This document shows, one piece after another, positions 1,371 through 38,321 of a stretch of 64,000 bases of DNA. Numbering within the stretch: position 1 is the first letter of the stretch; the number at the start of each line of letters is the position of its first letter. A program made the translations under genes and the position numbers. The stretch is from an uncultured Spirochaetaceae bacterium. GTDB taxonomy: Bacteria > Spirochaetota > Spirochaetia > Sphaerochaetales > Sphaerochaetaceae. The notes beneath the pieces are model-generated. The model saw only the letters and a program-made list of their open reading frames with translations. It was not told the origin of the DNA and did not search any database. The stretch spans positions 124,001-188,000 of the forward strand of contig CALXMP010000001.1 in assembly GCA_944389505.1 (NCBI GenBank). The letters run 5' to 3'.

Positions 1371-2456
1371 TCACGTATTTTTCGCAGTAAGTTTCTCTTC
1401 ATTGAGATATGTATTCTCACCCCAATAAGAACGCTCTTTTATAGTTTTTGCATATGCAGAATCACAATCTGCATCAAAAGAGATTCTTGCCGAGTTGCTG
1501 CCGTTGCTGGATATATATACTGTACGTGCATTGGCCCCTGCCTTAACAGTCAGAACGGAGTTCTTAACTATGCAAGATGTATCATATGCATAAGAAGTTC
1601 CTCCCCTGTTTCCAGCAACAAGAGCTGCAAAAGGAACCTCATTCCCAGGCCCCCAATTATCATTAAAATAGTAATTGGATCCTGTATATTTTCCTGTTGT
1701 TGAAATAGTGCTGTTGATAATTTCAGCATTACCGCCTCTGACAACCAGTCCCTGCCGGTCACCCGTGATTTTTGAGTTTCTGATAGTAAGATTACCAGGT
1801 ACATTAATCAGTAATCCACAACTATCATTATCATCTTTTCCTGTTGCAATAAGCTCAGAATCAATAATTTCTATATTAATTGGGATAAATGCACCAGAAT
1901 CGTATTTATTAGCATTTGTTGCAATTGTGTATACGCCATTTGCCCTTATAGTTGAATTATTAATCTTTAATTTAACCCCTGATGGGGTCTCGTTCGTAGA
2001 GCCTATTGCAATTGCACTTGAATCAGCGACCAAATCAACATTGGTCAATTTCAATGTACCATTCTCTTGAATACCGATACAGCCATGAGAACCATAAGAA
2101 TCATTATCCTCAGATGGATAGGAAGCTTCAACATCTCCATCTGAAATTGATAAACTTACTCCATTGCCAATTGCCATAGATCCGCCCACATCAAATGCAA
2201 TCTTATTTCCATTCAGATCGATATTATATGACCTTCCTTCTTCCAGATCCATAGGACTTATTATATCAATATCTGATGTAAGACGAGCATTTCCAGTTGT
2301 TTCAAGCATTGATTCAAGATCCTCAGAAGAACCTACATCATACGGTGTTGTATCATCCTCAGGTGGGAAAAATGGTATAAACCTATATTGCGAACAAGAT
2401 GAGGCAAAAATACCTAAACAAATAACAATGGCTAAACCTAAACGAGTCTTTTTCAT
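1371..2456 (-). CDS. Lipoprotein with beta-helix-like repeats (unknown function)
   Basis: The 361-residue product begins with a lipoprotein signal peptide: basic MKKTR, a hydrophobic stretch, and a lipobox ending FASSC with Cys21 as the likely lipidated residue. After an acidic linker the body is a series of short strand-like units with repeated Asn/Ser turns (patterns such as LTIRNSKI, AEIINSTI, LKLTNVDL). This resembles right-handed parallel beta-helix (pectate-lyase-like) surface proteins; I see no catalytic signature. The ATG at 2456 is preferred because it starts the signal peptide and has GGAG about 10 nt upstream; a TTG-started in-frame extension to 2513 would run through the C8 tract. 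It sits between rplQ and rny, where a lipoprotein is not expected, and is low in GC compared with the ribosomal genes. Probably surface exposed (inference). Confidence 0.85.
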   Translation of the reverse strand: MKKTRLGLAIVICLGIFASSCSQYRFIPFFPPEDDTTPYDVGSSEDLESMLETTGNARLTSDIDIISPMDLEEGRSYNIDLNGNKIAFDVGGSMAIGNGVSLSISDGDVEASYPSEDNDSYGSHGCIGIQENGTLKLTNVDLVADSSAIAIGSTNETPSGVKLKINNSTIRANGVYTIATNANKYDSGAFIPINIEIIDSELIATGKDDNDSCGLLINVPGNLTIRNSKITGDRQGLVVRGGNAEIINSTISTTGKYTGSNYYFNDNWGPGNEVPFAALVAGNRGGTSYAYDTSCIVKNSVLTVKAGANARTVYISSNGSNSARISFDADCDSAYAKTIKERSYWGENTYLNEEKLTAKNT

Positions 2457-2481: not shown

Positions 2482-2513
2482 AGTATGCCCAATACCGGGG
2501 GGGGAGTAGTCAA
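2482..2513 (-). promoter_or_regulatory. Candidate promoter with C8 tract in spacer
   Basis: On the minus strand a -35-like TTGACT (2513-2508) is followed by ACT, eight C residues (2504-2497), and a -10-like CATACT (2487-2482). The present spacer is 20 nt; losing three C would give the optimal 17. The start codon is 25 nt further on. Homopolymer tracts in promoter spacers are known phase-variation devices, and poly-G tracts precede several Treponema pallidum surface-protein genes. Confidence 0.55.
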
Positions 2514-2637: not shown

Positions 2638-3057
2638 TTACTTTGCTTCGGCCTTGTCGGCTTTCTTGTCAGCCTTCTTTGCAGCTTTCTCTTCCTTCTT
2701 TGTCTTCTCGACAAGCTCGAGTATGACCATCTCAGCTGCATCGCCAAGTCTGTTTCCAGTCTTGAGTATGCGGGTATATCCGCCATTTCTCTCTGCGAAG
2801 AGAGGTCCGATTTCCTTGAAAAGCTTGTTCACAACAGTCTCATCATAGATGTAGCGTGCTGCAACACGGCGATTGTGGACAGAGTCCGTCTTGCCGCGTG
2901 TGATCAGCTTCTCAGCCATCTTCCTTACCTCAAGTGCCTTAGCCTTGGTTGTCTCAATCCTCTCATATCTGAGAAGGGAAGTAACCATGCTGCGCATAAG
3001 TGCTTTGCGCTGACTTGATTTGCGGGAAAGCGCATTGAATCCGATTCTATGCTTCAT
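2638..3057 (-). CDS. rplQ: 50S ribosomal protein L17
   Basis: L17 binds 23S rRNA near the exit of the peptide tunnel. The start [24 protein letters not shown] is typical of the family, and the core (to about residue 118) is followed by a Lys/Ala/Glu/Asp-rich tail of about 20 residues, which explains the 139-residue length. The start codon overlaps the end of rpoA by 11 nt, indicating coupled translation. It is the last gene before the operon terminator. Confidence 0.97.
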
Positions 3058-4108
3058 TGTTTTCCTCTTCCTTGTTCTCTGGAACTTTGATAGACGTCTT
3101 TAATACACTGAAGTCTGTCATGCCGAGTGTAAGACCCCACTCCCTGAGCTTGTCCTTGATCTCAGAAAGCGACTTCTTTCCGAAGTTGCGTGTCTTGGCA
3201 ATCTCATCCTCAGTCTTCCTAGCCAGATCTCCGATGGTCTTAATGCCGGCATTCTTGAGGCAGTTGGAGGAACGGACAGTAAGCTCAAGCTCCTCTACAG
3301 GAGTATTGAGAAGATCCCTGATCCTAGCCTCTTCCTCGTCGGCTTCCTCGGTTGTGCAGATCTTACCCTCATCGAAGTTGATGAAGATCGTGAAGTGCTC
3401 CTTTACGATCTTTGCAGCTTCGCCAAGCGCATTCTCCGGAGTGATAGTTCCATCTGTCCAGATCTCGAGAGTGAGCTTCTCATAGTCATTCCTCTGACCG
3501 ACCCTTGTCGGCTCGATAGAGTATCTGACTCTCTTAACAGGAGAATAGAATGCATCGATTGATATCACTCCAGGCTCCTCAGAGTACTTCTCGTTGAGCT
3601 CGGAAGGAACATAGCCCCTGCCGAGGTCAATCTGGACCTCCATCTCAAGATCGCAGTCATCCATCATCGTGAAGATAGGAAGGTCAGGATTTGTCACCTT
3701 GACCATATCGCGCTCGAAATCCTTGCCGGTGATGACACCAGGTCCCTTGCAGGGGATTACAAGCACTGTACCCTCACTCTCCTCAGGCATGCTGATCTGC
3801 AGTTTCTTAATGGCTGCAATGATATCGCTGATATCCTCCCTGACACCACGGAGCGGCTCAAACTCAGATGTAACCATATGAGGCTCGCTATGATCCGCAT
3901 TGCCGAATGTCGTGAAGCGGATTGCTGTCACGGCATAGCCCTGGATTGAGGAAAGGAGAACGCGGCGGAGCGTGTTTCCAACCGTTGTTCCGAATCCCCT
4001 CTCGAACGGATATGCGACGAACTTGCCGTAGTCGGATGTCGAGACGGTGTGATCTGATGTGATCCCAGAAGGTCTCTTGAATCCCTTGAGAAGATTTTTC
4101 CTAGCCAT
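3047..4108 (-). CDS. rpoA: DNA-directed RNA polymerase alpha subunit
   Basis: The alpha dimer is the assembly platform of RNA polymerase. The N-terminal domain (about 1-240) carries the typical [20 protein letters not shown] near residue 36, which forms the dimer interface. An acidic linker ([15 protein letters not shown]) leads to the C-terminal domain (about 265-335) with the helix-hairpin-helix region [15 protein letters not shown] that contacts UP elements and activators. Length 353 is a little longer than E. coli (329), mostly in the linker and tail. It lies between rpsK and rplQ as in most bacteria; no rpsD sits next to it here. Confidence 0.98.
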
Positions 4109-36653: not shown

Positions 36654-36659
36654 GCAGAG

Positions 36660-36692
36660 CCTTCTCCGCACAGGCTAAGAGAAGGCCCTCAT
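36660..36692 (+). terminator. Putative terminator after AraC gene
   Basis: CCTTCTC and GAGAAGG (with flanking G/C pairs, 8 bp) pair over a 12-nt loop, just after the stop codon. The tail is not T-rich (CCTCATCATTAATCT), so termination strength is uncertain. Confidence 0.45.
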
Positions 36693-37061: not shown

Positions 37062-38258
37062 TCAAACTTCCTGATTCTCAGGAATCTGAACAGAAATAGG
37101 ATTACTTGTATATGTCTTCATCTGTGCCAGATCATCATTCATGCATACACCAATGTAAACACCGACTGATTTTGCGTCCGAGTACCTTGAAACATAAATT
37201 GACTTAACCCAATTTGTTCCATCCGTAGACACATATACATTATCAGAAGGTACTGTAGCAGCTGTATCACTTGTAAGAGTTGTAGCTGTAACAGTGAACA
37301 ATGAAGGTGTAATATTTCCACCAAGAAGTGTTGCCGGCTTAGTTGTCTGCTCAGCAGTACTTACTGCCTTATACTGATTCTCAAGAGTCAGGGTAGCAGA
37401 ATGTGTTACACTCTCATCTGTTCCAAGGCAAAGTGTTATACTCCATGAGCCTGTTGTAGAAGGAAGTGTTGCAGGAACATCTTCAGTATCCCACTGGAGA
37501 CCCGTAGCAGAAGGAGAAGCAAGAACACCAGACCATGCTTCAGTATCAGCTACACCATTTGCACTTGCCCAGATTTTATATACATCGAAATTAGAAGCAA
37601 GAGCAGATGTTCCATTCACATAGAAATGCTGGTCCTTAGCTACAACTGAGAAGTCCACAACAGAATCCTTTACGACCTCAATTACTGGTGCCTCTTCAGG
37701 ATGCATAGAGGTTGCAAAAGTAACTGTAATTGGCTTATCTACACCAACACCAGTTTCTGATGCATCATATGTAGCAGAATACTCGCTCGACTTCAGCTCT
37801 CTGCTAAGAGTCTTATCTGCATTATATGCTGTTACTGTAATATCACCTTTGAAAGGATCTGTAGTTGTTCCAGCAACACCCTTAATTACTGCATATGCTT
37901 TCGTTTCAGTAGTTGTTGCTTCAATTGAGGCAATTGGCTCTACAACAGGAGTTATTTTAGCTATCTCACCAAGGTATGTAAGAGTTACTTCCTCCGGAGA
38001 CGTAGAGCTGAGAGCAGTACCATTCGATACACTAACAACAGAATTGTCTAAATCCTCCGTTGTTCCATCCTTAAATACTGCAACAACCTTTATACCCCTA
38101 AAATCAAAATCCTCGCCGTCAAGATATGCGGAATCCCCTGTTTCAACAACAGCAATCCCTGTAAATTCCTCTGGCCAATTGATAGGCTGCTGCTCGCAAG
38201 CTGTGAATGCAACAAGCATCATAGCCGCGACCATGATTGTAAGAATCGTTTTCTTCAT
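37062..38258 (-). CDS. Lipoprotein with Ig-like domains (unknown function)
   Basis: A 398-residue lipoprotein: MKKTILTIMVAAMMLVAFTAC with Cys21 as lipidation site. After a short linker there are at least two bacterial Ig-like (Big-type) repeats: one around residues 35-105 (DGEDFDFRGIKVVAVFKDG... ending LTYLGEIAKITP) and one around 110-180 (FKGDITVTAYNADKTLSRELKSSEY..). The rest is Thr/Ser-rich beta structure with no recognised enzyme motif. AGAGGAG precedes the ATG. Probably surface exposed and used in adhesion or polysaccharide binding (inference). Its promoter region contains a nine-G tract. Confidence 0.88.
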   Translation of the reverse strand: MKKTILTIMVAAMMLVAFTACEQQPINWPEEFTGIAVVETGDSAYLDGEDFDFRGIKVVAVFKDGTTEDLDNSVVSVSNGTALSSTSPEEVTLTYLGEIAKITPVVEPIASIEATTTETKAYAVIKGVAGTTTDPFKGDITVTAYNADKTLSRELKSSEYSATYDASETGVGVDKPITVTFATSMHPEEAPVIEVVKDSVVDFSVVAKDQHFYVNGTSALASNFDVYKIWASANGVADTEAWSGVLASPSATGLQWDTEDVPATLPSTTGSWSITLCLGTDESVTHSATLTLENQYKAVSTAEQTTKPATLLGGNITPSLFTVTATTLTSDTAATVPSDNVYVSTDGTNWVKSIYVSRYSDAKSVGVYIGVCMNDDLAQMKTYTSNPISVQIPENQEV

Positions 38259-38285
38259 TTGATTCTACTCCTCTGATTAATATCA

Positions 38286-38321
38286 CGGATAGGCTACCCC
38301 CCCCCGGTTGTGTTTTGTCAA
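38286..38321 (-). promoter_or_regulatory. Candidate promoter with G9 tract in spacer
   Basis: A consensus -35 TTGACA (38321-38316) is followed by ten bases, nine G residues (38305-38297) and TAGCCTATCC, which offers weak -10 boxes (TAGCCT at spacing 19 or TATCCG at spacing 24). The tract ends 38 nt before the start codon. Changes in tract length would alter the spacing. Confidence 0.55.

Follow-up and report, generated by a model that had tools for sequence, protein, structure and literature searches.

A lipoprotein gene behind a G tract

Around 38 kb in the window, by which we mean the whole 64-kb stretch of DNA analysed here, a lipoprotein gene lies on the minus strand, and its coding strand reads TTGACA-N10-G9-TAGCCT, then AGGAG and the ATG (Table 1). 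The run of nine G's behind a TTGACA hexamer is thus present as the preliminary description had reported it. A single Big_3 Ig-like domain (PF07523, E 1e-5) occupies residues 41-103 of the product, and the AlphaFold model of its body is uninformative, with a mean pLDDT of 34. The gene is followed by a small HTH gene, whose 69-aa product matches HTH_23 (E 1.8e-5), HTH_29 and Terminase_5 in Pfam and no other family; NCBIfam holds no model matching either this protein or the window lipoproteins.

Table 1. Features of the two tract-linked lipoprotein loci in the window
Feature	Position	Strand	Basis
-35 hexamer TTGACA	38316..38321	-	Sequence; same hexamer heads the genus cassettes drawn by pattern
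Fixed part of spacer, AAACACAACC, 10 nt	38306..38315	-	Sequence
G9 tract, putative slippery part of spacer; total spacer 19	38297..38305	-	Sequence; C9 on the + strand
-10 hexamer TAGCCT (TAnnnT), abutting the 3' end of the tract	38291..38296	-	TAnnnT at nearly every cassette
Ribosome-binding site AGGAG	38268..38272	-	Sequence
Lipoprotein gene, 398 aa, ATG at 38258, Cys21	37062..38258	-	Sequence
Signal peptide through Cys21, constant cassette part	38196..38258	-	DNA identity with L044, L050 and L051
HTH gene, 69 aa, GTG start, second of the two cassette genes, 54 nt past the lipoprotein stop codon	36798..37007	-	HTH_23 match
Terminator-like hairpin after the HTH gene	36654..36669	-	Pattern match only
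-35-like TTGACT	2508..2513	-	Sequence
C8 tract (coding strand), 3 nt behind TTGACT	2497..2504	-	Sequence
Second tract-linked lipoprotein gene, 361 aa, Cys21	1371..2456	-	Sequence

The likeness to a second lipoprotein gene at 2.4 kb, on which the preliminary description had built its case, is borne out in its details: the distance from tract to ATG is 38 nt at the G9 gene and 40 nt at the C8 gene, the tract base on the coding strand is opposite (G at 38 kb, C at 2.4 kb), and both products, of 398 and 361 aa, carry a lipobox with its cysteine at position 21. A terminator context had been ascribed to both genes; at the 38-kb gene, to which our result is confined, it takes the form of pattern matches, namely a weak terminator-like hairpin at the end of the lipoprotein gene and the hairpin after the HTH gene. 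No HTH gene was found near the 2.4-kb lipoprotein gene (1371-2456, minus strand), and its C8 run, being the sole C-type promoter tract in the genome, therefore represents a different variety. A lipobox scan of the window returned four matches, two of them without a hydrophobic signal peptide, and on this simple reading no lipoprotein genes of the window other than the two tract genes appear convincing.

Placement of the tracts in the genome and the genus

G/C runs in the window number 133 of length 4, 16 of length 5 and one each of lengths 6, 8 and 9, so that, as noted before, there is no further run of at least 8. The genome as a whole contains 19 runs of at least 8 (lengths 8-12) and just four of exactly 7; across both counts the run lengths are bimodal, with lengths 6-7 scarce. 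For runs of at least 8 per 2.1 Mb, Markov models predict ~27 (first order) or ~5 (second order). The observed count alone is thus not far past chance, and the evidence lies in the shape of the run-length distribution and in placement. In a genome-wide pattern search, 14 of the 19 tracts were found 3-12 nt behind TTGAC[A/T]; with the pattern reversed as a control, the G-type search gave no match and the search that covers the single C-type tract gave one. The motif TTGACA-N(7-12)-G(9-12) occurs at 12 loci in this genome. Moreover, 16 of the 18 assessable tracts touch a lipobox gene, including one frameshifted and one out-of-frame copy, and the targets are, judged by this lipobox, predicted surface or exported proteins. 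Two tracts (L040 and L045) sit inside signal-peptide codons. The enrichment near lipoprotein genes that was to be looked for genome-wide is accordingly strong, both behind the hexamer (14/19) and at the genes (16/18). One G9/C9 run, at L038 (C4:95761-95769), lies beside a lipoprotein gene and upstream of a TTGACT, an arrangement unlike that of the other promoters.

The pattern recurs beyond this genome. TTGACA-N(2-14)-G7 is matched in 39 of 48 genus genomes, against one match in total for the reversed control. By pattern, 143 cassettes were taken from 18 genus genomes, and 134 of them have the pure form TTGACA-N-G-TAnnnT. Among these 134, the tract is G9 in 80, G10 in 24, G8 in 19, G11 in 5 and G12 in 5, and the fixed part of the spacer is mostly 7-10 nt long, 10 nt being commonest (81/134). 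TAnnnT stands directly behind the tract with its T, A and final T conserved in 49, 51 and 50 of 54 cassettes, respectively, and by a simple rule 46 of the 54 genus cassettes with flanks precede a lipobox gene. Several cassettes lie at contig ends (G000 C6, C16, C17), so that the true copy number may be higher.

A stricter G8 pattern was present in 56 of 296 sampled genomes of the phylum, mainly in this genus and in f3, a second family of the same class; families f5 and f24 gave zero matches in the same sample. Reversed-pattern controls stayed near zero across these searches. Members of f3 (e.g., G312, G200, G204 and G133) have numerous TTGACA-N-G8 sites, known by pattern counts alone, and at one locus in G312 (L110) no lipoprotein was found. 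At L111 of G294, a member of the same family as the genome analysed here, a TTGACA-N-G8 site also precedes a lipoprotein gene.

A two-gene cassette with a conserved HTH gene

The window locus belongs to a two-gene cassette composed of a constant promoter and signal peptide, a hypervariable body and a conserved HTH gene of ~69 codons. A protein search found 11 HTH gene copies in this genome, all open; the paralogues are about 59-80 aa long, and wherever the upstream sequence is readable, a copy is mostly preceded by a lipoprotein gene. Across the genus, a same-strand HTH ORF follows 26 of 49 assessable tract genes, usually within 40-70 nt, while the other 23 have no HTH gene within 420 nt. Among the closer copies dN/dS is 0.02-0.2, showing that the HTH gene is under strong purifying selection. 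A profile search detected the protein in 5 of the 7 genus genomes sampled and in none of the 289 genomes sampled outside the genus, and none was found in a search of viral contigs. The predicted structure is a three-helix HTH with low-confidence ends. A fold search with this model returned no match below E 0.5, the weak best matches being paired-domain folds, and a PDB sequence search gave nothing significant. We rejected membership in the MerR family, given that Pfam matches are limited to HTH_23, HTH_29 and Terminase_5, that the model has three helices and that the paired-domain matches are non-significant. An origin as transposase or insertion sequence was likewise discarded, since the ORF ends at 69 aa without a catalytic domain and is absent from the viral contigs searched.

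Tract lengths vary between near-identical copies

Apart from the tract, which is G9 in the window locus (L033) and G10 in its paralogue L044, these two loci do not differ between the -35 and the end of the leader, and their signal peptides are 98% identical. The paralogues L042 and L047, with 100% identical leaders, have G9 and G11. The orthologous locus L050 in another MAG has G8 where the window has G9, and the orthologue pair L044/L051, from different MAGs, has G10 and G9. The preliminary description had proposed to look for tract-length variation in reads; in the assembled sequences, length differs among near-identical paralogues as well as among orthologous loci from separate MAGs. The assemblies being MAGs, each homopolymer length is a majority call. 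At the two loci with in-codon tracts, G10 in L040 (about 2980-3075) is in frame for 408 aa, and C10 in L045 (3051-3200) leaves the lipobox in a frame different from that of the ATG. These tracts are probably translational on/off switches, assembled ON and OFF, respectively, and would represent the classic translational form of the same slippage switch. Taken together, length differences and in-codon tracts look like the signs expected of a slippage system. At L039 (3108-3170) a T run shifts the reading frame of the signal peptide when compared with the paralogue L043, which could mean a pseudogene or a second switch. Tract length and the fixed spacer part show no anticorrelation in the 134 pure genus cassettes (rho -0.10, p 0.24). 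Lengths are therefore not adjusted to a single optimum, and a slippage equilibrium accounts for this better than a tuned spacer would. The genome carries mutS; it does not lack MutS, and we count this, together with the absent anticorrelation, against the proposed spacer switch.

Bodies are replaced between constant ends

L050 is the orthologue of the window locus: on the groEL side the two are 96.3% identical across 2.5 kb, and identity to the window locus reaches 94-100% in the flank, leader, signal peptide and HTH core. Between these ends, the 398-aa window body (37062-38190) and the 419-aa body of L050 yielded no BLASTP match at E 0.01 and no DNA alignment. The lipoprotein body has thus been replaced at the orthologous locus, with both ends kept. 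Signal-peptide DNA of the window locus is 98-100% identical to that of L044, L050 and L051, all with bodies that are unalignable as DNA; the bodies that do match within this genome share about 24-46% identity over partial spans. A mosaic is seen at L047: its upstream region and HTH core match L041 (100%), its leader matches L042 (100%), and its signal peptide is nearer to L042 (90%) than to L041 (67%). A junction therefore lies at or near the tract. Cassettes with readable upstream sequence each carry their own complete promoter.

How might the tract control transcription?

We consider it very likely that lipoprotein transcription is phase-variable through slipped-strand changes in a G tract that sets the -35/-10 spacing, and this is the explanation that best suits the sequences compared here. 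The G tract would form the variable part of the spacer in a sigma-70-type promoter, so that at the window locus the spacer equals 10 + n, with n = 9 giving 19. Slipped-strand mispairing at replication would add or remove G's and thereby shift the spacer, and this shift would alter transcription of the downstream surface lipoprotein in a reversible and stochastic manner, independently at each locus. Single cells would then probably switch their tract-promoter lipoproteins on and off at random, giving rise to switching within a population. The genome-wide switching system for lipoproteins, first proposed from two cases, gains support from the enrichment, from recurrence across the genus and from length differences between copies, and the earlier interpretation appears largely to hold.

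Spacer lengths suggest a further distinction. In this genome spacers are 19-22 at HTH-linked loci and 16-18 at the others (exact p 0.0025), and HTH-linked loci have longer spacers in the genus as well (p 0.012). The modal spacer of 19 falls outside the usual 17 +/- 1, a further point against the proposed switch; among the few ordinary TTGACA...TATAAT promoters found, 16-17 is most frequent. Three HTH-linked cassettes of this genome without a long G tract have spacers of 19, 18 and 18, and interrupted tracts elsewhere keep a spacer of 18-21, mostly 19, before intact genes; tracts interrupted like GGGGGTGGG or degenerate like AGGGGGGTAAAAAGGGGGG mostly stay at 18-19. Because of the spacers in the HTH cassettes lacking a long tract, and because interrupted tracts keep mostly 19, we infer that in the HTH class 18-19 is active or weakly active and 20-22 nearly silent; the 19 of the interrupted tracts could instead be inherited from the modal G9. 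In the HTH cassettes at L153 (about 1100-1130 and 3370-3400) and L167 (C8) the G run is degenerate or short, and with their spacers of 19, 18 and 18 they are possible locked promoters.

An over-long spacer is perhaps compensated for by the HTH protein or by the geometry of the G tract. The window-class lipoprotein is probably co-transcribed with the small HTH protein, which would then switch together with its lipoprotein. More tentatively, and with rather more doubt than confidence, we envision the HTH protein as a dedicated partner that binds the G-rich over-long spacer (at least 19 bp) and either makes the promoter productive or blocks it. If so, an ON cassette would feed back on itself or on other cassettes, and random slippage would thereby be tied to a concerted display of exchangeable lipoproteins, perhaps one at a time. 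A palindrome across the tract (TACC...GGTA) was dropped as a candidate because the flank varies (ACC, ACT, AAC, TAC). The constant promoter/signal-peptide end and the HTH end probably serve as homology arms for the exchange of bodies.

Alternative explanations

Conceivably, the G tract serves above all as a promoter element that binds a protein, for example the HTH protein, or that has a structural role, with its length held near 9. The strong mode at G9 (80/134), the interrupted or degenerate tracts that mostly hold a spacer of 18-19 before intact genes and the longer HTH-linked spacers, in this genome as in the genus, would all be consistent with such an element. Yet lengths range from 8 to 12 and are unequal even in near-identical copies and in orthologues, loci that have no HTH gene carry tracts of comparable length, and two tracts are part of a coding region, so that their length determines the reading frame; we thus regard a binding element as unlikely. 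Somewhat less probable still is a scheme whereby recombination comes first, such that tract and signal peptide do no more than supply homology for gene conversion of bodies, in the manner of T. pallidum tprK or Borrelia vls, and slippage is minor. It would account for the replaced body of L050 with both ends kept, and for the mosaic L047, in which L041-type upstream and HTH-core sequence is joined to the leader and signal peptide of L042. It sits poorly with the 23 of 49 assessable tract loci lacking an HTH gene within 420 nt, with tracts located exactly between -35 and -10 or inside codons, and with examined cassettes that have their own complete promoters rather than one expression site and silent donors.

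That the tracts are chance runs or assembly artefacts deserves next to no credence: a first-order model does predict about as many runs of at least 8 as are observed, and several cassettes do lie at contig ends, but neither would explain the placement behind TTGACA with a reversed control of 0, the recurrence in 39 of 48 genus genomes or the low number of runs of length 6-7. Slippage within the promoter spacer remains our preferred reading.

Relation to known systems

In Treponema pallidum, poly-G lies between -35 and -10 of tp0126, an OmpW homologue that is transcribed best at a spacer of 17 bp; promoters of tprE/G/J need G8 or fewer, and the tprL tract varies in vivo from 7 to 11 G (PMC7864442). 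In Neisseria meningitidis, homopolymer tracts in promoters modulate transcription of porA (poly-G), there via -35/-10 spacing as discussed in PMC7864442, and of opc (poly-C). The tract described here likewise lies between -35 and -10, as in porA and tp0126, and the switch itself would be of a known kind, by analogy with what has been shown for tp0126. With tp0126 and tprE/G/J/L our loci share the setting, a spirochaete with poly-G in promoters of surface-protein genes. Those targets are putative outer-membrane proteins, whereas here they are lipoproteins, and about a dozen promoter loci follow one shared design, with a linked HTH gene in one class. The likeness to porA and opc is that of a homopolymer tract in a surface-protein promoter, in an unrelated organism and unrelated genes; to our knowledge, neither involves a multi-locus cassette design or an HTH partner.

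T. pallidum tprK and Borrelia vls and vsp-vlp exchange a variable surface-protein body between constant ends, a feature that is present in our cassettes too. By contrast with tprK and vls, the cassettes examined have their own promoter, and most have an HTH gene; among them we saw no lone expression site fed by silent donors. MerR-type proteins activate promoters with spacers of 19-20 bp. By analogy only, the combination of over-long spacer and small DNA-binding protein is alike, but the predicted HTH protein matches HTH_23 and has a three-helix model with weak paired-domain likeness.

A search of open-licence papers returned no report of such a system in gut or uncultured spirochaetes, nor of a genus-wide lipoprotein repertoire, a constant-variable-constant cassette or a genus-restricted HTH partner. 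Poly-G promoter switching, which in T. pallidum concerns a few genes, would on our findings take in the lipoprotein repertoire of a whole genome in a genus of uncultured spirochaetes. Going by pattern counts, it possibly also reaches many genomes of a second family in the class. The HTH cassette would unite three layers, slippage, body exchange and a linked DNA-binding protein, and offers a simple, reporter-testable model for spirochaete control of variable lipoproteins.
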